A stretch of DNA of 64,000 nucleotides, from the NCBI RefSeq assembly GCF_002968335.2, contig NZ_CP134398.1, positions 1,860,001 to 1,924,000 on the forward strand, read 5' to 3'. The position numbers and the translations under genes are program-made. The notes under the pieces were generated by a model. The model saw nothing but the letters and a program-made list of their open reading frames with translations, had not been told where the DNA came from and ran no database searches. Positions 42,478 through 53,903 of this stretch are shown piece by piece; the stretch's first letter is position 1; every line of letters begins with the position of its first letter. This DNA is from Mycobacterium sp. ITM-2016-00316. GTDB taxonomy: Bacteria > Actinomycetota > Actinomycetes > Mycobacteriales > Mycobacteriaceae.

Positions 42478-44112
42478 ATGGTGGCCAATCCGCGAGCCGG
42501 TCAGCCGGCACAGCCCGAAGATCTCGTCGACCTCGCACATCTGGTCACCGCCTATTACACGGTGCAACCCGACCCCGATGACGTCGCGCAGCAGGTGGCG
42601 TTCGGGACGTCCGGGCACCGCGGCTCCGCGCTCGACGGGGCCTTCAACGAGGCGCACATCATTGCCACCACCCAGGCGATCGTGGAGTACCGCGCCGCGC
42701 AGGGCACCACGGGCCCGTTGTTCATCGGCCGCGACACCCACGCCCTGAGCGAGCCGGCCTGGGCGTCGGCGCTGGAGGTGCTGGCGGCCAATGACGTGGT
42801 GGCGATGATCGACGCCGCCGACCGCTACACCCCGACACCGGCGGTCAGCCACGCCATCCTCACCTTCAACCGGGGCCGCGACACCGACCTGGCCGACGGA
42901 ATCGTGGTGACCCCGTCGCACAATCCGCCGCGCGACGGCGGCTTCAAGTACAACCCGCCCAACGGCGGCCCCGCCGACACCGACGCCACCAGTGTGATCG
43001 CCAAGCGGGCCAACGAGATCTTGCGCGACGGCATCCGCTCGGTGAAGCGGGTCCCGCTCTCGCGCGCCCTGCAGGTCGCCCAGCGCCACGACTACCTCAA
43101 CGCCTACGTCGCGGATCTGCCCAACGTGGTTGATCTGCACGCCATCCGCGCGCAGGGGGTGCGCATCGGGGCGGATCCGCTCGGTGGCGCCAGCGTCGAC
43201 TACTGGGGCGCCATCGCCGAGACCCACAATCTGAACCTCACCGTGGTCAACCCGCTGGTCGATGCGACGTGGCGGTTCATGACGCTGGACACCGACGGCA
43301 AGATCCGGATGGACTGCAGCTCGCCGAACGCGATGGCCTCGCTGATCGGCAAGATCGGCGAGTACCAGATCGCCACCGGCAACGACGCCGACTCCGACCG
43401 GCACGGCATCGTCACCCCCGACGGCGGGCTGATGAACCCCAACCACTACCTGGCGGTCGCCATCGACTACCTGTTCACCCACCGCCCGGGCTGGCCGGGT
43501 ACCACCGCGGTCGGCAAGACCGCGGTGAGCAGTTCGATCATCGACCGGGTGGTCGGCGGGCTGGGCCGCGAGCTGGTCGAGGTGCCCGTCGGCTTCAAAT
43601 GGTTCGTGGACGGGTTGATCGGCGGGACAATCGGTTTCGGTGGTGAGGAAAGCGCGGGCGCCTCCTTCCTGCGGACCGACGGCTCAACCTGGACCACCGA
43701 CAAGGACGGCATCATCCTGGCGTTGCTGGCCTCGGAGATCCTCGCGGTCACCGGGTCCACCCCGTCGCAGCGCTACGCCGAACTCGCCGCCGAGTACGGG
43801 GCGCCCACCTACGCACGCATCGACGCCCCGGCCGACCGCGACCAGAAGGCCCGCCTGGCCAAGCTGTCACCCGAGCAGGTGAGCGCCACCGAACTGGCCG
43901 GGGAGAAGATCACCGCCAAGCTCACCAGCGCGCCCGGTAACGGGGCGGCCCTGGGCGGGCTGAAGGTCACCACCGAGAACGCCTGGTTTGCCGCCCGGCC
44001 CTCGGGCACCGAGGACGTGTACAAGATCTACGCGGAGTCCTTCAAGGGACCCGAGCATCTGGCGGAGGTGCAGGAGGCCGCCAAAGATGTGGTGAATACA
44101 GTCATCGGGTGA
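42478..44112 (+). CDS. pgm: Phosphoglucomutase (alpha-D-glucose phosphate specific)
   Basis: The 544-residue protein has the catalytic Ser147 in [11 protein letters not shown], the substrate loop [12 protein letters not shown], and the phosphate-binding C-terminal [14 protein letters not shown]. It interconverts glucose-1- and glucose-6-phosphate, feeding glycogen, trehalose and cell-wall sugars. The N-terminal GTSGHRGS is also conserved. The GTGA overlap with the MFS gene suggests co-transcription. ATG 42478 or GTG 42481 both work as starts. Confidence 0.95.
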
Positions 44113-45377
44113 GCTCTACCGCGGAGGAAGACTGTCCGGCTGACGCCAAGCGGAGGCTGCCGCGCGAGGTCTGGGTCCTGGTCGCCGCCAATATCGTGGT
44201 GGCGCTGGGTTTCGGGGTGGTGGCGCCGGTGCTACCGCAGTACGCCCGGCACTTCGGGGTCAGTATTGCCGCCGCGACGTTTGTCATCACCGCCTTCGCC
44301 GTGCTGCGTCTGATCGGTGCACCGCCGGCCGGATTTCTGGTGCAGCGGCTCGGCGAGCGCAAGGTCTACATCAGCGGACTGGTCATCGTGGCGCTCTCGA
44401 CCGGTGCCTGCGCACTGGCCGAAAGCTACTGGCAGCTGCTGTTGTTCCGGTCCCTCGGCGGTCTCGGTTCGGCGATGTTCACGGTGTCCTCGCTGGGCCT
44501 GCTGATCCGCATCTCGCCGGCCGATGCGCGGGGCCGGGTCGCCGGACTGTTCTCGTCGGGCTTCATGATCGGCTCGGTCGGCGGGCCGGTCCTGGGCAGC
44601 CTGACCGTGGGGTTCGGCCTGTCTGCGCCGTTCCTGATCTACGGCGCCGCGCTGCTGGTCGCCGCCGCCGTGGTGTTCGTCAGCCTGCGGCATTCCACCA
44701 TCGCCGGCCGCTCGGACGAGGACGAGGCCCCGCCGGTGCCGTTCCGCACCGTGTTCGCGCATCGGGCCTACAAGGCGGCGCTGATCTCCAACTTCGCCAC
44801 CGGGTGGGCATCGTTCGGGCTGCGGATCGCGCTGGTTCCGCTGTTCGTCGTGGAGGTGCTGGGTCGGGGCCCGGGTGCGGCCGGGCTGGCGCTGACGGCG
44901 TTCGCGGTGGGCAATATCTCGGTCGTCATCCCCAGCGGGTACCTGTCGGACAAGCTGGGGCGGCGCAAGCTGCTGATCTTCGGGTTGACGCTGGCAGCGG
45001 TGTCGACGGCGCTGGTGGGCTACACCACCTCGCTGCCGGTCTTCCTGGCCGCGGCCTATGTGGCCGGCGCGGCCACGGGGATCTTCGTCTCACCGCAGCA
45101 GGCCGCGGTCGCCGACGTGGTCGGCAACAAATCGCGCGGCGGCACCGCGGTGGCGACCTTCCAGATGATGGCCGACGTCGGCTCGATCGGCGGCTCGCTG
45201 CTGGTGGGGTTGATCGCGCAGTACTTCTCGTTCTCCTGGGCGTTCGTGATCAGCGGGGCGATCCTGCTGGTCGCCGCGCTGGCCTGGGTGTTCGCCCCCG
45301 AGACCAGGGGCCGGCCGCCCGCCGAGCACACCCCGGTCCGCCCGCTGGGCCCAGAGGCCGGCGGCGAGGTGCCCTGA
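44109..45377 (+). CDS. Major facilitator superfamily exporter
   Basis: The 422-residue protein has twelve hydrophobic helices in two halves with a central polar loop (around 190-215, [17 protein letters not shown]). Seen are the loop 2-3 motif [14 protein letters not shown] and a matching repeat [15 protein letters not shown] in the second half. These fit a DHA1-type drug or metabolite exporter. Translation is coupled to pgm (GTGA overlap). The gene is followed by the tRNA-Ala insertion site. Substrate unknown. Confidence 0.85.
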
Positions 45378-45433
45378 CCAGCTGTTTTGAACCTGTGTGG
45401 GACAGTGGTGTACCTTTCAACAGCACCACAAAC

Positions 45434-45506
45434 GGGGCTATGGCGCAGTTGGTAGCGCACCACACTGGCAGTGTGGGGGTCAGGGGTTCGAATCCCCTTA
45501 GCTCCA
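45434..45506 (+). tRNA. tRNA-Ala (anticodon GGC)
   Basis: The 73-base cloverleaf is complete. The acceptor stem GGGGCTA pairs with TAGCTCC and contains the G3-U70 identity pair of alanine tRNAs. The anticodon stem CCACA/TGTGG encloses CTGGCAG with anticodon GGC. The T arm is GGGGTTCGAATCCCC. CCA is not encoded. The 3' half is the crossover site of the island: bases from 45461 recur at 50468. Confidence 0.95.
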
Positions 45507-45507
45507 C
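45461..45507. repeat. attL: 47-base direct repeat within tRNA-Ala
   Basis: The sequence from CACACTGGCAG to TAGCTCCAC (47 bases) is identical to 50468-50514. It covers the anticodon loop to the 3' end of the tRNA. Tyrosine-recombinase islands typically duplicate exactly this part of a tRNA, which leaves one intact gene on the integrase side. Confidence 0.9.
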
Positions 45508-45510
45508 AGA

Positions 45511-45549
45511 CAGAAACCCGCTCTGACCTCGGTCAGGGCGGGTTTTCTG
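45511..45549 (+). terminator. Hairpin terminator after tRNA-Ala (element side)
   Basis: CAGAAACCCGCTCTGACC pairs with GGTCAGGGCGGGTTTTCTG, leaving a small loop and a TTTT just inside the 3' arm. It lies three bases after attL and so is brought by the element. It would end tRNA transcription and shield the island from read-through. Confidence 0.75.
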
Positions 45550-45584
45550 GTTAGTCGGCGGGGTTGCGCGCAGGGCCGATTGTC

Positions 45585-46245
45585 CTAAGTTTGTCCTACT
45601 GCCGGTGGCTGTCCTACGGATGCCGAGAACACCGCCGACGCTGCCGTGAGCCGGTCGTCGGTCACCCGGCCATAGACGGCCTGCGTCATGCGCTCGGTGT
45701 GACCGTGCCAGGCGGCGACGACATCGGCCCCGATACCTGCCGCGCGCATCCGCGAGATATTGGAGTGCCGCAGCTTGCCGAGAGTGATCGCCTTAAGTCC
45801 ACGCCGTGCGCTGCGCGGTGAACTCGCGGCTGTACTCACGCACCGGCAGGGGAGTGCCATCGGCCCGCGAGAGCAACAGATCGGCGTTGGCCAGCGGTCG
45901 GCCTATGGCCAGGTGCTCGCGCAGGTGGGCGGCACGCATCGTCTTGATCATCGACAGCTCGCGCGGCGGGAGGGGGAGATCGCGAGAGCTGCGGTCGGTC
46001 TTCGGCGTCACGATGGTGTCGTGGCCGTTGACATCGACACGGGCCTGGCGGATCCGCAGCGCGCCGGTCTCTAGGTCGATGTCCTGCCAGCGCAACCCGC
46101 CGACCTCCTCGCGGCGCAGACCGAGCAGCGTCAGCGCGAAGCATCCGGCGAGGCGGTGGTTGGCGACGTGATCGAGGAACTGGCCTGCTGCATGTATGTC
46201 GTTTTCGGCGTTAGCTGGGACCACAATTCCTGTGATTCGAACCAC
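45585..46245 (-). pseudogene. Tyrosine-integrase remnant (N-terminus lost, frameshifted)
   Basis: Two overlapping frames together form the catalytic part of a tyrosine recombinase. The upstream frame has TLLGLRREEVGGLRWQDID (catalytic Arg) and ends prematurely in AQRTAWT. A single-base frameshift near 45800-45815 leads into the second frame with LRHSNISRMRAAGIGAD (His and Arg box) and HGHTERMTQAVYG (nucleophile Tyr). The N-terminal arm-binding domain is absent and there is no start codon of good quality. The island can no longer move by itself. Confidence 0.85.
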
Positions 46246-46574
46246 AGTGGCGACGAATGTCCCGTCGCCGGAAAGTGCTGCCCCAACCTGCGCGAACGGC
46301 CGAACTAGATAACGATCCGGTAACGATCTCGGATAGCACCCTGTAGCGGAGCCAAGTTCGCAACCAGATGGGACGCGGGTGAATTTAGTGCCTCTATCTA
46401 AACTTTGCTGATCTGATTCTATTTGCTAGAACTGCAGTTCAAAGGAGTAATATTGCTAGTGTTCGGTTAGCTGAATTACCGGGAACGTTAGGAACTCCTG
46501 TGGGTTATTTGGCTTCCGCAGCCACGGCGGACGGCCTGTCGCCGGGGTCCACTTCGCAACCAGGAGGTTCTGGG
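46246..46574. other. AT-richer gene-free stretch of the island
   Basis: About 330 bases separate the integrase remnant from the small peptide gene. The part around 46390-46500 is clearly less GC-rich than the window and has several TA-rich tracts (for example TATCTAAACTTT, AGTAATATTGC), compatible with a promoter for the downstream cargo. I see no RNA gene or terminator. Confidence 0.5.
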
Positions 46575-46682
46575 ATGTTCACTGAACACCGGACCGACGG
46601 CCACGGTAATGGCCACTGCCAGGATTGCGGGAACACGGTCACGCAGGACATCTGCGATGGCGTCATCCTGTTCCTGTCCTAG
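46575..46682 (+). CDS. 35-residue Cys/His peptide upstream of the protease
   Basis: A consensus AGGAGG (46562-46567) sits seven bases before ATG 46575, the best ribosome site in the island. The encoded peptide begins MFTEHRTDGHGNGHCQDCGN and ends with a hydrophobic tail VILFLS. It has a CxxC pair (15, 18), a further Cys at 27 and three His (5, 10, 14), enough to bind zinc. No family is recognised. It is on the same strand as the protease and the HEPN gene. The strong ribosome site argues against a chance frame. Confidence 0.5.
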   Translation: MFTEHRTDGHGNGHCQDCGNTVTQDICDGVILFLS

Positions 46683-46767
46683 CAGTTGAGGCCGGAGGGG
46701 TGCGCCGGGCCGTCACCGCGACGACCCGGTCACCCTGATGGTCGGTGGCGAGTGCTACAGCTTGGCC

Positions 46768-47670
46768 ATGCCTCCAATTCAGCTACCAACGGCGTCGGCA
46801 CGATCGGTGCGCATGGAAATGGTCTACTGCCCGGACGGCCCCGACGTGGACGCGGAGCAGGCCAAAGAGTTGCGATCACTGGCTTACGGCAGCGCATTCA
46901 TCTTCGAACTCGAAGGCCAGCAGTTCCTCGTCACTGCGCGGCACAACGTGACGGGCCGTCATTGGCAGACGGGCGAGTTCCTTGGTGGATACTCGATGGC
47001 CCCGACCCACATCGTGCTCCATCTCTTGGCGAAGCCGCCCGCTGGCGGCTGGCAGATCGGACCATCAGAGGTCGGGCCGCACGTCGGAAGCACGCAGATC
47101 AAGTTGAAGGCGTTCCTGGTTCCGCTCCTGGGAGACGATTGGAAGCCCCGCTGGATGGAGCACCCGACGTTCGGCGCCGATATGGACGTCGTGGTGTTGC
47201 CAGTCAAGTTCACCGATGACGACACGCTCGTCATTCCCTGGACCACGCCCCTGGTCGAGGCGCGCGAGCCTCACGAAGCGCCCTGGCCCAACCTCGCCGC
47301 CGGGCAGGAAGTCTTCGTCGTCGGCTACCCCGACGCGCTGATCACCGGACCGATGTTCCCGCTCTGGACACGTGGCAGCATCGCCTCCGAGCCGTACTTC
47401 GGTTACACCGTCGCGGACAAGCGCCTACCGCTGATGCTCATCGACGCGAGGACTCGTCAGGGCCAGTCGGGCTCGGCTGTCATGCGGCACCGCCCCGAGG
47501 GCACCGTCGTCACTCGCAGTGACGGTGCGTTGGGCGTGACGACCGGTCCGGTGTCGCAGCTCATCGGGGTGTATTCAGGCCGGACGAGCGACGAGTCTGA
47601 CCTTGGGTTCGTCTGGCGCATGGACGAAGTCGAAGTGGTCTGCCGCAACGGCGTTCAGGGAACAAGCTAG
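46768..47670 (+). CDS. Trypsin-like serine protease of the island
   Basis: The 300-residue protein has the chymotrypsin-fold pattern with the triad His59 (LVTARHNV), Asp140 (ADMDVVVLPV) and Ser234 (RQGQSGSAV). VFVVGYPDALITG and RGSIASEPYFGY form the usual strands. There is no signal peptide or membrane helix, so it should be cytoplasmic, which is unusual for this fold. No ribosome site clearly marks the start; ATG 46738, 46768 and 46813 are all possible. Bacterial cytoplasmic trypsin-like proteases are known from several defence systems, often activated on infection. Its neighbours, the Cys peptide and the HEPN gene, are on the same strand. Confidence 0.75.
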   Translation: MPPIQLPTASARSVRMEMVYCPDGPDVDAEQAKELRSLAYGSAFIFELEGQQFLVTARHNVTGRHWQTGEFLGGYSMAPTHIVLHLLAKPPAGGWQIGPSEVGPHVGSTQIKLKAFLVPLLGDDWKPRWMEHPTFGADMDVVVLPVKFTDDDTLVIPWTTPLVEAREPHEAPWPNLAAGQEVFVVGYPDALITGPMFPLWTRGSIASEPYFGYTVADKRLPLMLIDARTRQGQSGSAVMRHRPEGTVVTRSDGALGVTTGPVSQLIGVYSGRTSDESDLGFVWRMDEVEVVCRNGVQGTS

Positions 47671-47812
47671 AGTCGCGCACGGACCGGATGGCGTGCTGGT
47701 GGCGGTGGTTGCCCCCAACATGCTCAGCCGCTCCATCGGTCTGCGCCTTGTGCCTGGCCGAGCTCGACCTGATGCTTCCTTTTCCTCGCCCACCACCGTC
47801 GGTTGAGGGCGG

Positions 47813-47818
47813 CATAAT
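47813..47818 (+). promoter_or_regulatory. -10 element for a leaderless HEPN-gene transcript
   Basis: CATAAT, one base from the TATAAT consensus, is followed after six bases by the ATG at 47825. In mycobacteria this spacing produces leaderless messages that begin at the start codon. No ribosome site precedes the gene, which supports this reading. Confidence 0.5.
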
Positions 47819-47824
47819 TCGGCC

Positions 47825-48538
47825 ATGGGAGACCCATCGGCCAAAGGGCAGTACGACGTTATCGGGACGCGCCACTATTTTGCGGGTGCACATATCCGCG
47901 CCGCCCGCTTGATGGCGTCACAGTGCCGCGAACGGGAACGCGCTGTTCTGGAGATGCGGCGCGGTGAGTTGCCGACCGTTGACTACGACGCCGAGTCATA
48001 CGCGGTGTGCGCAATCGTTGAGTCTGCGGCGTTCCTAGAAGCCCGCGTAAACGAAATCTGGTTCGCTGCCACGGAGCCGATACGTGCGTCTGCTAGCCAG
48101 CGGCTAGCTGGTCTCGAAGACAAGCAGGTCGACGCCATACGCGACCTGGCCGAGCGGGAAGGTTCGGACCGACTGCCGGTGATCGACAAGCTAGACCAAA
48201 CATTGATCTGCGCTACTGGGCGGGGTATCGAAAAGGGCAGGCGACCCGCTCAGGACGTACGCGGCCTAGTAAAACTGCGCGACGCGTTCGTGCACTTCAA
48301 ACCAAAGCTCCAATGGGACAACGAGGCGCACGCCTTGCAGAAACGGCTGATCCAGTTGGTGCCGCCGAACCCGTTGATGCAAGGAGCGAAACCCTGGTTC
48401 CCGCACCATGTTCTGTGCGCCGGGGTCGCGCAGTGGGCGTGCGACAAATCCGCCGAGTTCATTCACCAGTGGGAACAAGCACTCGGCCTGACCAACACCT
48501 ACAGCATCGAGTACGCGCTGATCATCACCGAGGGATAA
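47825..48538 (+). CDS. HEPN-like helical protein
   Basis: The 237-residue protein is all-helical. It carries an R-x4-H motif (RDAFVHF, Arg152 and His157) late in the fold, following YAVCAIVESAAFLEARVNEIWF. This helix/helix/R-x4-H pattern is that of HEPN-type RNases and HEPN-like dimers in immunity and toxin systems. RNase activity is inference. It lies 154 bases downstream of the protease gene on the same strand and seems to have its own leaderless promoter. It is convergent with the toxin gene that follows. No named family is claimed. Confidence 0.65.
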   Translation: MGDPSAKGQYDVIGTRHYFAGAHIRAARLMASQCRERERAVLEMRRGELPTVDYDAESYAVCAIVESAAFLEARVNEIWFAATEPIRASASQRLAGLEDKQVDAIRDLAEREGSDRLPVIDKLDQTLICATGRGIEKGRRPAQDVRGLVKLRDAFVHFKPKLQWDNEAHALQKRLIQLVPPNPLMQGAKPWFPHHVLCAGVAQWACDKSAEFIHQWEQALGLTNTYSIEYALIITEG

Positions 48539-48595
48539 GGTTCGCGCGGCGCACCCGCAGAGCGAACGGACGTCGTGGCGGCGTCGTCGCACTGA

Positions 48596-49066
48596 TCAGA
48601 ACGTCCACCCCTGCGCCTCGATGTACTCCATGAGATTGAGACACGGCACGCCGAGGTCGCCGCATACGTCGGGGATGCGCGGTTTGTCGAGACTGCCGGT
48701 CGCGGTCTCCTCGGTGACGACGGTGCCGTTGCGCACCATCGCCAGCGCGATGACGAACGGGTCCGCGCCGCTGCGTCTACCGCCCTGCCGGACGAGCCGG
48801 CCGTGCACCGTGAGTATCTGGGCGGCGCTCTGCTGGATGGGGGTTTCGAGCGGCACGAACAGGTCGCCTTGCGCATCGGCCCACCGTTTGGCGTCGTCGT
48901 CGCGCCTGTTCAACTCGCGCTGCACCTCGTCCACCGACCTGATCTGTCCGGCCTCGATGGCGCCCTCGATCTGCACCCAGAGCGTCTGAAACACCTTGGG
49001 CCGGAACAGGTCGCGCCGCCCGTTGAGGATCGCGCTGGTGTCGAACGAATAGAACTGATCGGTCAC
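48596..49066 (-). CDS. DUF4411 PIN-like toxin
   Basis: The 156-residue protein has PIN-fold acidic residues: SFDTSAIL (Asp9), SVDEVQREL (Glu), GADPFVIALA (Asp) and a late VVTEETA. It matches the DUF4411 PIN-like group, which is commonly coded with Xre-ImmA partners. It is probably an RNase toxin. The GTG start overlaps the stop of the Xre-ImmA gene (GTGA), so the antitoxin is translated first. Confidence 0.85.
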   Translation of the reverse strand: MTDQFYSFDTSAILNGRRDLFRPKVFQTLWVQIEGAIEAGQIRSVDEVQRELNRRDDDAKRWADAQGDLFVPLETPIQQSAAQILTVHGRLVRQGGRRSGADPFVIALAMVRNGTVVTEETATGSLDKPRIPDVCGDLGVPCLNLMEYIEAQGWTF

Positions 49067-50259
49067 ACGACGCTCCGCAACTCGGCGGACTCGGCCAGGC
49101 GGGGAATCTGGCTAACCTTCGCGTCCAGGTAGATCGCGGCGGTGTTGCTGTCGATGACCCGGCGGCGGTGGGCGTCGGTCACGGCGCGCACGTATCCTTT
49201 GCCGAGGTCGCGCACGGCGCTGCGGTACCAGTTGCCGCCCGAGGCGCGGTTGCGGTCGGCCTCCTCGTCGTGGGCGACAGTGAACTCGGCGCGGCGCTGG
49301 CGGTACAGCTCGACCGGCACCAGCCCCAGCGTGGACAACCGTCGTAGGAACGCCTCGGCGCTCACACCGAACTGCGCGGCGACAGGGCGCAGTGTGTCGT
49401 AGGTCCACGACGCCGGTATGTCGGTTCGCGCGATGACTTCCGGCCTCGCCCGCACGGCGGCGGCGGGCATCAGTACGGCGGCGGCGATGGCGTTGCACCG
49501 CGCCTCCAACGTTCTGTTGGCGTTGCGCGGCTTGTCGTCGGTCACCACGTCGCACAGCCCCTCGGTGTGGAGCACCAGGTGGATGAACTCATGCAGCAGC
49601 GAGAACAGCCGTGGGCGGGGGTAGTCGCCGCCGTTGAGCACGATGACCGGCAGCACGTCGAAGAACAGCGACATGCCCCGCATCTCGTCCACGGTCACCC
49701 TGCCGCCACGGGTCGCCAGCACCAGCACGCCGGACGCCTCGATGGCCGACACCCACGCATTCAGGTGCTCATAGGGACTCGGAGAGTTCGGCGGGATGGG
49801 CAGCGGCCCGACCTCGATCAGCGTTGATCGGATGCGCGCGGCAATGTCGGTGTCGTTGTCGTCGGCGGACACCGGGACGCGCCAGGCGTCGGGTAGCGCC
49901 CGTTCCTCGGTCTCGGCCAGTTCCAGCGCGAATTCGCGCTGTGTGTGGGCGCGGCGAAACTCCTCATGCAGGTCCGGCGACCACTTCGCCGCGTCGGCAC
50001 CGTCGAGCCGCCGGAAGTCGCGCAGGGTGTCGAACCCCTCGGGCGGCGCAGGGAGGAAGAACACCGCCAGCGACCGCTTGTAAACCTCGGCAGCCTTGCG
50101 TAACTGTGCGATTGTCGGCACAGCCTCGCCCGCCTCCCACGCGGCCACGCGATCGTCAGCCACCCCGATCTTGCGCGACGCCGCTACCTCGATCAGGCCG
50201 CACGATTCGCGTGCCCAACGGAGCACGGAAGGCTCCACCGGGGCGGGTATCGACGGCAT
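49063..50259 (-). CDS. Xre-family regulator fused to ImmA/IrrE metalloprotease (antitoxin)
   Basis: The 398-residue protein has an Xre helix-turn-helix around 20-65 (GLIEVAASRKIGVADDRVAAWEAGEAVPTIAQLRKAAEVY). Further on is an ImmA/IrrE-type zinc metalloprotease with the motif HEFIH (His223, Glu224, His227) in LFSLLHEFIHLVLH. Such fusions repress their own promoter and, in TA pairs, hold back the PIN toxin. ATG 50259 was chosen; an in-frame ATG lies at 50283. The gene overlaps the toxin start by a GTGA. Confidence 0.88.
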   Translation of the reverse strand: MPSIPAPVEPSVLRWARESCGLIEVAASRKIGVADDRVAAWEAGEAVPTIAQLRKAAEVYKRSLAVFFLPAPPEGFDTLRDFRRLDGADAAKWSPDLHEEFRRAHTQREFALELAETEERALPDAWRVPVSADDNDTDIAARIRSTLIEVGPLPIPPNSPSPYEHLNAWVSAIEASGVLVLATRGGRVTVDEMRGMSLFFDVLPVIVLNGGDYPRPRLFSLLHEFIHLVLHTEGLCDVVTDDKPRNANRTLEARCNAIAAAVLMPAAAVRARPEVIARTDIPASWTYDTLRPVAAQFGVSAEAFLRRLSTLGLVPVELYRQRRAEFTVAHDEEADRNRASGGNWYRSAVRDLGKGYVRAVTDAHRRRVIDSNTAAIYLDAKVSQIPRLAESAELRSVV

Positions 50260-50467
50260 AGTCACGATGATGCCGTACGGCACCCACAGGTGGCGGTGGA
50301 ACGGGGGGCGACACGGGCGAACACCAGTTCGACGTGTCCTAACGGTGTCCTACGCCTCCGGGGCACGGGCAAATACGCACTAGACAGACCTGACGTGATC
50401 CGACCATTTGACGTGGACGTATGGACACCCCGCTAGACCAATCGACACCAGCCAGCACATGCAGTTT

Positions 50468-50514
50468 CACACTGGCAGTGTGGGGGTCAGGGGTTCGAAT
50501 CCCCTTAGCTCCAC
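50468..50514. repeat. attR: duplicated 3' half of tRNA-Ala
   Basis: The 47 bases are identical to attL (45461-45507), and the sequences diverge on both sides (t against c before, GTTTTC against AGACAG after). The 5' half of the tRNA is missing here, so this is a junction scar and not a functional tRNA. It marks the distal end of the island. Confidence 0.92.
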
Positions 50515-50520
50515 GTTTTC

Positions 50521-50557
50521 GAAAGTCCGTTCCGGCTTCGGTCGGGACGGACTTTTC
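50521..50557 (+). terminator. Hairpin terminator after attR (original tRNA terminator)
   Basis: GAAAGTCCGTTCCGG pairs with TCGGGACGGACTTTTC around a short TTCG-like loop, and TTTT follows within the 3' arm. Before the island inserted, this hairpin would have directly followed the tRNA. Both junctions thus carry a terminator, one chromosomal and one brought by the element. Confidence 0.75.
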
Positions 50558-50698
50558 CGTTTCCGGGGCCAGCTGTGTGCACCGCCTTCGCCGAACGTGA
50601 CGCGGCGCTCGGCGGGCCGGACTATGTTTGCCATCGAGGCGCATGCGGGGTGAGTGGGAATCGGTCGGCGTCACGCGTATCAACGCAAGGGGATGATC

Positions 50699-51946
50699 GT
50701 GTCGCCCACTGCGCGCAGCCGTCCCCACGAGGCGAATCTCGACGCGGCCGTGTCCGGAGTCGGGCTCGACCCGGCCTTCCAGCCCATCACGGCGCTCGCG
50801 GACGGCTCGGTGGTCGGCTTCGAGGCCCTGACGCGGTGGCCGGCGCTCGGCGACCCCGATCCCGAGGCGGTGTTCGCCCACGCGGCGGCCACCGGCAGGC
50901 TCGGCGGCCTGGAAAAGATGTGCATCGACGCCGCGATCGACAATGCCCTGCGTCGGGACCTGCCTCGGGGCACCCTGCTCGCGCTCAACTGCGAGCCGCT
51001 CGGTAGCCACCTCAGCCGCGCCGAGAACCCGCTGCTGGACCGCGCGCACGACGAGCTGCGGGTGATTTTCGAGCTGACCGAACGCAGCCTGCTCACCCAC
51101 CCGCGGGCGCTGCTGCGGAAGGTGGCGGGTCTGCGTGCGGACGGGTTCGGCATCGCCCTCGACGATATTGGCGCCCATCCTGATTCGCTGGCGCTGCTCG
51201 ACGTCATCTGCCCGGATATCGTCAAACTCGACGTCGATCTGGTGCAGTCCCACCCCACCGACGCCCAGGCGCACATCCTGGCCGCCGTGCTGGCGCACAC
51301 CGAGCGCACCGGGGCGGTGCTGCTCGCCGAGGGCATTGAATCCGACCAGCACCTCGAGCAGGCACTGGCGCTGGGAGCCGACCTCGGCCAGGGCTACAAG
51401 TTCGGACGCCCAGGTCCGTTGGTCGAATCCGTGTCGGTGGCGTGGTCGCCACCGCCGATGAAGCACCCGGTGCAGCCGGTCGGCGACTCACCGTTCGACC
51501 TCGTGGCGGGCAAGGTCCTGGTGCGAACCGCGCGCAAGGCCACCCTGATACCGTTCTCCCGGCACATCGAGGCCCAGGCGCGGCATGCGACCGACCCGCC
51601 GATGGTGATGGCCTCCATGCAGATGGCGCAGCACTTCACCGCTTCCACCAGTGCGCGCTACAGCGAACTGGCGCGGTCCTCGGCACTGGTCGCGATCTTC
51701 GGCCGGGGCCTGCCCGAGGATCTGGGATCCGGCGTCCGGGGCGTGGACCTGGCACCCGACGATCCGCTGTGCGGGCAGTGGATCGTGCTCATCCTCGGGC
51801 CGGACCATTGCGCGGCGCTGATCGCCCGTGAGCAGGACACCACCGGCTCGGTGCCCGAGGCGGAGCGCCGGTTCGATCTCGCCATCACCTACGACCGCGT
51901 TCTGGTCACCGTCGTCGCGCGCAGTCTGCTGGACCGAATCCACTGA
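50699..51946 (+). CDS. EAL-domain c-di-GMP phosphodiesterase with DICT-like sensor
   Basis: The 415-residue protein matches the Rv1357c type. EAL motif residues are seen: EAL in GFEALTRW, LALNCEP (Asn), IFELTERS (Glu), IALDDIGAHPDS (two Asp), IVKLDVDLV (Lys), LLAEGIESDQHL (Glu) and QGYKFGRPGP (Gln). It should therefore cleave c-di-GMP. The C-terminal 160 residues form a separate domain of the DICT type, often a sensory part. GTG 50699 was chosen because AAGGGG precedes it by about six bases, whereas ATG 50693 would abut this site. Confidence 0.85.
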   Translation: MSPTARSRPHEANLDAAVSGVGLDPAFQPITALADGSVVGFEALTRWPALGDPDPEAVFAHAAATGRLGGLEKMCIDAAIDNALRRDLPRGTLLALNCEPLGSHLSRAENPLLDRAHDELRVIFELTERSLLTHPRALLRKVAGLRADGFGIALDDIGAHPDSLALLDVICPDIVKLDVDLVQSHPTDAQAHILAAVLAHTERTGAVLLAEGIESDQHLEQALALGADLGQGYKFGRPGPLVESVSVAWSPPPMKHPVQPVGDSPFDLVAGKVLVRTARKATLIPFSRHIEAQARHATDPPMVMASMQMAQHFTASTSARYSELARSSALVAIFGRGLPEDLGSGVRGVDLAPDDPLCGQWIVLILGPDHCAALIAREQDTTGSVPEAERRFDLAITYDRVLVTVVARSLLDRIH

Positions 51947-52007
51947 GCGGTGCGGTATGTGCACACCGGCTTGGCGCCGCCGCAGAATGGACGCGGGCCG
52001 CTAAAGT

Positions 52008-53903
52008 GTGGGCGATGTGCACCTCTCGCTGTGCTGCCGGAACTCGGGGGGCTTGCAAAGTCGGTGGCGCCAGTTGATCGGCAGTCTCAACGGTTTGGTG
52101 GATCTGGCTGCCAAGCGGCTGATCACCGCGCACACCGACAACGTGGTCGAAGTCTGCGAACTGGTGCTCACCGATCTGGCGGCCTATCTCGGGCTCGATG
52201 TCGCCTTCCTGCGGCACAACGATCACGAGATCCACGCGACCCGGTTGGTGGCGCAGTGGCCGATACGTACCTTCGTGCCCGATCCGGACCCGATCGGTGT
52301 CGTCTACTTCGCCGACGCCGACCCGGTTTTCGCGATGGCCGAATGGCTCAAGGAGCCGTTGGTGATCCGCCCGGAGCCCAAGACCGACGAGTATCAGCAG
52401 ACGATCCAGCAGGGCACCGAGGTTCCGCAGACGTCGCTGGCCTGCGTGCCATTGCTGTCGCATGACGTCACCACCGGCACGTTGGGTTTCGTGAAATACG
52501 GCGACCGGGAGTGGCTGGAAGAAGAGCTCAACGCCCTGAAGACCATCGCGACCATGTTCGCCCAGTTGCAGGCCAGGCTGGTCGCGATCGAACGGCTGCA
52601 GTTTCTGGCAGAACACGACGATCTCACCGGGCTGTGCAACAGCGGGGTGCTCACCGATCATCTCGATGAACGCCTCGCGCCGGGACAGGACGGACCGGTG
52701 GCGGTGCTGTTCACCGACCTGGACCGCCTGAAATCGGTGAACGACCTGTTCGGCCACACCGCGGGGGACGAACTGATCGCACAGTTCGCCCGGCGGCTGC
52801 GCGAATCCATCGGTGACACGGCACTTCTCGCTCGTCAGGGCGGGGACGAGTTCGTGATCGTGCCGCATGAGCCGATGGTGCTGGAGGAGGCCGCGCTGCT
52901 GGCCGAACGGATCCGGCTGCTCGTCCGGGAGTCCTTCACGGTCGGCCGCGAGTTCGTCCGCCGCACCGCCAGTATCGGTGTGGCGGTGGGTTTCCCGGGC
53001 CATGACTCGGCCTCCGATGTGTTGCGCTACGCCGACCTGGCACTGGTCGCGGCCAAGGGCTCGGGAGGTAATGACGCCGCCGTCTTCACCGACGCCATCG
53101 CCCTGAAATACCAGCTGCTCAACGATGTCGAGTTGCACCTGCGCGACGGCATCGAGAGCGAAGCGTTCGTCGTGCACTACCAGCCCGAGGTGGACCTGCG
53201 TACCGGCACGGTGGTCGCGGTCGAGGCGCTGGTGCGGTGGAACCACCCCACCCGGGGCATGCTGCTGCCGAGCGCCTTCATGCCTGTCGCCGAATCCTCG
53301 AACCTGGCAGCGGTATTGGGCCGCAAAGTACTTCAGGACTCCTGCGCGCAACTGCGGCAATGGAAGTCGATGGGGCTCGCGCAGGACGTGAAGTTGCGGG
53401 TCAACGTGTCACCGGTACAGCGGGTGGCCGATGGTTTTGTCGACCATGTGGCGCGGGTGCTGGCGGAGTTCGAGCTCGATCCGGCCTCGTTGAGTCTGGA
53501 GTTCTCGGAGAGCTTCGTCACCGACGACGCCGATCTGAACAACGAGATCCTCACCGCGCTGCGAGCACTCGGCGTGGGACTGGCACTCGACGAGTTCGGG
53601 GCCGCCTACAGCGATTTGAGCAGGCTGAAGTCGCTGCCCATCGACACCTTGAAGATCGACCGGTCATTCGTGCAACACCTCGACGGAAGCAAGGACGATC
53701 TGGCGATCATCCGGGCCATCGTGTCCCTCGGCGAAGCGTTCGGCCTCGGGCTGGTCGCCGTCGGACTGGAGACCGAGGCGGCCGCGCAGATGCTGGTGAA
53801 GTTGGGCTGCCATCAGGCCCAGGGTTTCCTGCTGTCTCCACCGGTCGACGCGGACACCATGGCACAAATGCTGGCGACCGGGACCATCGACTGGCGGTGC
53901 TAG
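52008..53903 (+). CDS. GAF-GGDEF-EAL c-di-GMP enzyme (Rv1354c type)
   Basis: The 631-residue protein has a GAF-like sensor at about 35-200, then GGDEF at 278-282 (RQGGDEFVIV, active-site signature intact), and EAL from about 395 (VEALVRW, Glu406). No RxxD inhibitory site precedes GGDEF. The EAL part keeps NVSP, EFSESF, LKIDRSF and QG, but the usual DDFG is DEFG and AEGVET is VGLETE, so phosphodiesterase activity may be weak. The M. smegmatis homologue is known to be bifunctional. TAAAGT at 52002-52007 could be a -10 element, and GTG 52017 an alternative start. Confidence 0.87.
   Translation: MGDVHLSLCCRNSGGLQSRWRQLIGSLNGLVDLAAKRLITAHTDNVVEVCELVLTDLAAYLGLDVAFLRHNDHEIHATRLVAQWPIRTFVPDPDPIGVVYFADADPVFAMAEWLKEPLVIRPEPKTDEYQQTIQQGTEVPQTSLACVPLLSHDVTTGTLGFVKYGDREWLEEELNALKTIATMFAQLQARLVAIERLQFLAEHDDLTGLCNSGVLTDHLDERLAPGQDGPVAVLFTDLDRLKSVNDLFGHTAGDELIAQFARRLRESIGDTALLARQGGDEFVIVPHEPMVLEEAALLAERIRLLVRESFTVGREFVRRTASIGVAVGFPGHDSASDVLRYADLALVAAKGSGGNDAAVFTDAIALKYQLLNDVELHLRDGIESEAFVVHYQPEVDLRTGTVVAVEALVRWNHPTRGMLLPSAFMPVAESSNLAAVLGRKVLQDSCAQLRQWKSMGLAQDVKLRVNVSPVQRVADGFVDHVARVLAEFELDPASLSLEFSESFVTDDADLNNEILTALRALGVGLALDEFGAAYSDLSRLKSLPIDTLKIDRSFVQHLDGSKDDLAIIRAIVSLGEAFGLGLVAVGLETEAAAQMLVKLGCHQAQGFLLSPPVDADTMAQMLATGTIDWRC

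Follow-up and report, generated by a model that had tools for sequence, protein, structure and literature searches.

In the Hachiman, AVAST, Lamassu and DRT defence systems, a trypsin-like protease can be encoded near a nuclease gene. In these nuclease-protease pairs, the nuclease is an upstream MBL-type DNase, the protease forms a fusion with HamA, Avs1a or LmuA, and both coevolve (PMC12799240, Tuck 2025). Other trypsin-like peptidases belong to multi-gene systems, none of which, in the available parts of those reports, has the parts of the locus described here (PMC7159879, PMC13236601). PDC-S45, a computed phage-defence candidate of PADLOC, is listed among the candidates in Sinorhizobium prophages (PMC12429752). 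Tha, a 301-amino acid (aa) HEPN protein with an extra N-terminal part, provides tail-activated defence in S. aureus prophages (PMC11087260), and DUF4411 is listed among VapC-type toxin domains (PMC8790059). No paper combining a HEPN protein with a trypsin-like protease was found in a literature search that lay mostly outside subscription journals, which does not show absence in print. Here we describe a 5.0-kb island in the 5.99-Mb genome (G000) of Mycobacterium sp. ITM-2016-00316, present within a stretch of 64,000 nt of contig NZ_CP134398.1 (the window). Three genes within the island encode a short Cys peptide, a trypsin-like protease, and a HEPN-like protein, and an earlier note on this DNA proposed that they form a single defence cassette, with the protease as sensor or processor and the HEPN protein as RNA-cutting effector. 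We consider it likely, instead, that the locus is what remains, as a mosaic and after decay, of a small phage-related ("satellite-like") element that integrated into tRNA-Ala(ggc), and that it has kept three accessory modules of separate origin: the Cys peptide together with a stand-alone protease that has no evident secretion signal; a stand-alone HEPN protein; and a PIN/XRE-ImmA pair.

The evidence for a mosaic comes from a nucleotide comparison of the window with 29 fetched loci. Positions 46511-47663, which include the peptide and protease genes, are 81% identical to a locus in genome G208, while positions 47810-50273, a contiguous stretch of 2.46 kb that includes the HEPN, PIN, and ImmA genes, share 87% identity with M. 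vanbaalenii. The G208 island is located at the same tRNA-Ala, is flanked by 72-bp repeats 5025 bp apart, and contains broken pieces of TerL; matches to HEPN, PIN, and ImmA are absent from this locus. In M. vanbaalenii the block is preceded by a gene for a 182-aa integrase-family protein (PF00589, 59.8 bits) and by an HTH_17-like gene, with no protease match and no matching direct repeat around the block.

A third relative, the G200 element (L155; G200:C24, 1499-16219), occupies 14.6 kb at the same tRNA-Ala between 49-bp repeats that lie 14,644 bp apart. Its genes include a 393-aa integrase, an excisionase (xis)-like HTH protein, a primase-polymerase, a resolvase, TerL (phrog_38, 4.5e-87), PIN, and ImmA. 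Protease and HEPN matches are absent from G200. Of the 20 genes called in the element, 10 were scanned by Pfam and 8 by PHROGs, and no capsid or portal match was seen among these. The window aligns to G200 at 44002-46185 (79%, the integrase end) and again at 48596-50527 (86%). By these alignments, the island consists of the ends of a G200-type element plus a protease block and a HEPN block, joined at ~46185-46511, 47663-47810, and 48538-48596. Judged by sequence, the G200 element resembles what the window island decayed from, and G200-type elements are a possible candidate for a mycobacterial family of phage satellites.

Two perfect copies of a 47-bp sequence, the 3' end of tRNA-Ala, flank the island and mark its boundaries (Table 1). 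At an island-free site in G034, the tRNA-Ala directly adjoins the right-flank sequence; the left neighbours differ there. Within the repeats, the genes run from left to right as the broken integrase, the Cys peptide, the protease, the HEPN-like gene, and then the PIN and XRE-ImmA genes on the opposite strand. The integrase pieces score 22.0 and 16.1 bits against PF00589, both below the cut-off of 27.1; compared with the 393-aa integrase of G200, which is intact, their identities are 78% and 74%. Genes for replication and packaging like those of the G200 element were not found in the window, and there is no TerL match in it. The row of three same-strand genes described in the earlier note is confirmed, and all three open reading frames (ORFs) are intact. 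To the right of the island, at 50654-53903, two large genes code for one protein with EAL + DICT domains and one with GAF-GGDEF-EAL domains.

Table 1. Features of the tRNA-Ala island, in window coordinates
Feature	Position	Strand	Remarks
tRNA-Ala (ggc)	45434..45507	+	Integration site; ARAGORN
Left repeat	45461-45507		tRNA-Ala 3' end
Broken tyrosine integrase	45585..46245	-	Two ORFs; without N-terminal part, rest split over two frames
35-aa peptide, three Cys	46575..46682	+	Counterpart upstream of protease in G208
Stand-alone trypsin-like (S1/HtrA-like) protease	46768..47670	+	PDC-S45 and phrog_7688 matches; ORF reaches upstream to 46738
Junction between two homology blocks	47671..47824	.	G208 match ends 47663, M. 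vanbaalenii match starts 47810
HEPN-fold protein, unnamed family	47825..48538	+	R152-x4-H157; 237 aa
PIN-type protein (DUF4411), probable toxin RNase	48596..49066	-	PF14367 1.3e-38; convergent with HEPN gene
XRE + ImmA/IrrE (Peptidase_M78) protein	49063..50283	-	PF06114 2.7e-17, PF01381 2.8e-7
Right 47-bp direct repeat	50468..50514	+	attR-like copy of tRNA-Ala 3' end

The first module contains the protease. Within ORF 46738-47670 its likely start is at 46768, giving a protein of 300 aa, because the relatives P0025 and P0030 begin at MPxIQLP. The triad given in the earlier note as His59-Asp140-Ser234 (H69-D150-S244 in 310-aa numbering) is complete in 32/32 aligned sequences, which comprise the window's own and 31 chosen from 120 of the 487 found. 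The predicted fold is of the chymotrypsin/HtrA type, with an alignment to DegS that covers nearly the whole length, and inspection by eye shows no evident signal peptide. The PDC-S45 profile of PADLOC matches all 32 aligned sequences, the window protease among them at 4.5e-11. Trypsin_2, the sole Pfam match of the window protease, reaches 27.2 bits versus a cut-off of 27.6; PF13365.13 is annotated on P0023, a protein identical to the window protease, and a relative in G281 passes Trypsin_2 with 33.5 bits. The protease profile gave no match to PDB sequences. Pairwise omega of the gene is 0.17.

A protein search of phage records for relatives of the protease returned none; relatives are present at 16 viral-contig loci, where no neighbouring family recurs in more than 3/16 loci and those 3 are mutually close relatives. 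Plasmid records with a relative number 89, of which Klebsiella accounts for 69. (Among the matches listed, the Klebsiella plasmid relatives are 29% identical; one such locus, L106, is near dgt and queH.) The region around the protease in G262 is phage-like and also encodes TerL, a methyltransferase, and a DNA invertase. In G206 (L067) a relative (PDC-S45, 4.9e-15) is flanked on one side by a 1370-aa DrmMI/type IIG-like methylase and on the other by a UvrD-like helicase, with a DpdE/DrmD-like helicase and a HEC-05-like gene also adjoining, and a protease locus in G042 (L068) has a similar gene order. The G206/G042 arrangement may represent a known helicase-methylase defence locus in a variant form that includes a protease.

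The Cys peptide encoded upstream of the protease is probably a genuine gene in this branch of the proteases. Its ATG is preceded by a Shine-Dalgarno sequence, AGGAGG, 7 nt away. The G208 counterpart, a 34-aa peptide at the same place, has its own AGGAGG and ATG, keeps 22 of the 28 aligned residues, and retains its frame and stop despite a 7-nt indel; pairwise omega is 0.28, over 28 codons only. Another explanation is a two-gene unit, in which the protease would have the peptide as its metal- or redox-sensitive regulator, its inhibitor, or its substrate, and the adjoining HEPN gene would be unrelated. This explanation, which is compatible with a mosaic remnant, is quite possible if short of probable. 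The peptide and the protease are together in both G208 and the window and may be a real pair. However, these are two genomes only, tblastn gave no convincing peptide match next to more distant protease relatives in the subset of fetched loci that was searched, and the peptide could be a leader peptide.

The second module is the HEPN-like gene, which belongs to a small family: 57 proteins among 5.8 billion searched. An alignment of 50 chosen from these 57, the window's own included, has R152 in 50/50 and H157 in 49/50 sequences, and the R-x4-H motif recognized in the earlier note is accordingly one that the family keeps. The predicted fold of the 237-aa protein agrees, with caveats, with a HEPN helical bundle, and 5yep is among the top structure matches; a fold unrelated to HEPN, which the earlier note had named as a point against its proposal, is not what the prediction gives. 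Foldseek with this protein gave no significant match in PDB or BFVD, the HEPN profile had no match among PDB sequences, and the window protein matches DUF6279 alone in Pfam (E 0.15), with PF18735 not matched. Pairwise omega of the gene is 0.12.

HEPN relatives are present in 4 plasmid records; none was found in phage records or viral contigs. In M. rhizamassiliense (L010, 5986-9372) a bSEFIR-type gene (4.7e-62) begins 88 bp after a relative, with a 493-aa gene next in line, and in G039 and G121 the relatives lie near relatives of other G200-element genes. In P0004, a close relative at 84%, the upstream part of the ORF is similar to the C-terminal end of TerL from the G200 element (49-60% over 65-93 aa), and in its contig HEPN therefore seems to come directly after a terminase gene. 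The idea taken from P0004, that the protease-HEPN linker of the window retains a remnant of the TerL tail, was not significant and is unused as evidence: the linker score of 46 was reached by 7/2000 shuffles, yet at least 8/1318 stretches of the window score 47 or more.

The third module contains the PIN and XRE-ImmA genes, which overlap by 4 nt and from whose sequences we infer a toxin-antitoxin-like pair. The PIN protein is 94% identical in M. vanbaalenii and 90% in G200, and the ImmA protein is 92% identical in G200; omega ranges from 0.05-0.16 for PIN and from 0.10-0.13 for ImmA. Both genes are also present in G104 (L123), although broken into pieces there.

The neighbourhoods of the protease in G206 and of the HEPN gene in M. 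rhizamassiliense support a defence-like role for each family separately. The link to defence that was drawn in the earlier note holds in this form, for each family alone and including the PDC-S45 match, and not for a joint system. Each of the three genes could be an anti-phage gene by itself. By analogy with Tha, the HEPN protein would most likely be self-contained, dimerise, sense something made during infection, and cut RNA, stopping both the cell and the phage. The protease would act separately, as a stand-alone effector or regulator, the Cys peptide perhaps holding or tuning it, and the PIN RNase would be a toxin that the XRE-ImmA protein keeps in check.

If, on the other hand, the three genes were one defence system, the protease would sense or process something and activate the HEPN RNase, and the Cys peptide would serve as a sensor or inhibitor. 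Protease-activated nucleases are a known principle (the MBL nuclease of Hachiman/AVAST; PMC12799240), and the genes in the window are on the same strand, closely spaced, and intact in their catalytic residues. The homology blocks, however, part between the protease and HEPN genes, and the two families are mostly found apart. In a survey of 297 genomes of the genus, in which fragment hits were counted, the protease was present in 14, HEPN in 17, and both in 4: G000, G042 (on different contigs), G281, and G283 (53 kb apart). They are adjacent only in G000 and G281 (2/297). The earlier note had itself named homologues that mostly occur apart as a refutation of its proposal, and this is the pattern seen, with the protease lacking HEPN in 10/14 genomes and HEPN lacking the protease in 13/17. 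Among 394 genomes of the class, HEPN was found in 3 and the protease in 7, with both in G000 only; in the 100 relatives searched first, each was found in 4, with both in G000 and G042. The families also differ in viral contigs, with no HEPN relatives versus the 16 protease loci. The plasmid neighbourhoods inspected (5 of the 89 for the protease, 4 for HEPN) have no common partner by annotation; neighbours include an integrase, transposases, a SIR2 gene, an AbiEii-type gene, and restriction genes, and on a Rhizobium plasmid a PIN gene adjoins the protease.

Two observations weigh against separate origins and in favour of a joint system. First, the presence of both genes in 4 genomes exceeds the 0.8 expected (hypergeometric p 0.005, ancestry uncorrected), an excess that a common preference for islands would also explain. 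Second, G281 (L164, 8150-10405) has intact relatives of HEPN and protease on one strand, 393 bp apart, and this pair is the best evidence linking the two families. Its protease has the triad, a 56-aa insert near the C-terminal end, and an intact frame; given this intact frame, the cassette is accorded more weight, and the mosaic remnant less, than would otherwise be the case. The order in G281 is nevertheless reversed (a HEPN relative of 241 aa, a 72-aa ORF, a protease relative of 378 aa), and the locus has no Cys-peptide match. PADLOC, run on six G281 genes around the pair, gave PDC-S45 for the protease, weak matches for one other gene, and none for the HEPN relative. On balance, the three genes are probably not one new defence system, and we regard the cassette as unlikely. 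It is not preferred because of the block break and the poor co-occurrence, rather than because of any failed activity test.

About equally unlikely is plain genomic debris, in which the modules would be decaying leftovers without a current role. The broken integrase and the absence from the window of the G200 replication and packaging genes would fit, but the four larger genes are intact with omega values of 0.05-0.17, which measure whole lineages and not the time since the island's decay. Least probable, by a small step, is a single module of HEPN and the convergent PIN/XRE-ImmA genes (for example, with ImmA controlling both RNases), which the contiguous 2.46 kb shared with M. vanbaalenii favours, but which as a fixed unit is rejected on account of G200, where PIN/ImmA are present at the same tRNA without HEPN, and of the 15/17 HEPN genomes without a PIN match (PIN is found in 13/297 genomes, with HEPN in 2 and with the protease in 1), the convergent genes also not being one operon.

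A mosaic remnant with separate modules is what the block structure, the intact frames with low omega, the predicted folds, and the catalytic motifs point to. A broader proposal, slightly more doubtful than the peptide-protease unit, is that satellite elements of the TerL type in mycobacteria carry defence modules of one or two genes that can be swapped, and that decayed copies keep only these modules because they protect the host. Two of the modules would be new as working units, namely a family of stand-alone HEPN RNases and a PDC-S45 protease under the control of a tiny peptide rich in Cys. For the interpretation of such loci, guilt by adjacency is tempered, since recombination in a tRNA hotspot is the simplest account of the row of three defence-like genes seen here. 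The locus also draws attention to an unnamed HEPN family of small size and to TerL-bearing mycobacterial elements with cargo that is testable gene by gene. Should the protease protect alone, this would give a function to the candidate family PDC-S45, relatives of which occur in viral contigs and on the plasmids of several phyla.

How the modules compare with described systems differs from one to the next. The window protease and its aligned relatives share the PDC-S45 profile; to our knowledge, a Cys peptide is not a known part of PDC-S45. Like the nuclease-protease pairs, the window has a trypsin-like protease near a nuclease-like gene. Unlike them, its protease stands alone, with no fusion to HamA, Avs1a, or LmuA; the upstream gene is the 35-aa peptide, itself preceded by the broken integrase, rather than an MBL nuclease; and the potential partner is a downstream HEPN protein, from whose family that of the protease is apart in most genomes.

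Like Tha, whose HEPN domain is itself similar to 5yep, the HEPN-like protein would be a single-protein HEPN effector that has R-x4-H and belongs to a phage-related element. The likeness drawn here is one of motif and fold, and Tha differs in its extra N-terminal part and known tail-protein trigger. HepT proteins of HEPN-MNT pairs (6m6w, 5yep, 7ae6) have chains of 132-143 aa versus 237 aa here, and no MNT gene was recognised next to the window HEPN gene. RiboL-PSP-HEPN (PF18735) has weak matches in 9/50 aligned sequences (E up to 1, best 9.5e-4), as does the RT-associated HEPN of PADLOC (RTasHEPN; 9/50, best 1.1e-3), with none to the window protein in either case; the unrelated family DUF6279 reaches a similar E-value in the same scan (best 1.4e-3).

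With phage satellites and TerL-bearing integrative elements, the G200 element shares an integrase, an xis-like HTH protein, a primase, a resolvase, and TerL between att repeats, whereas the window copy is without most of these genes. The locus is thus probably a decayed phage-related island with defence-like cargo that includes an unnamed HEPN family.

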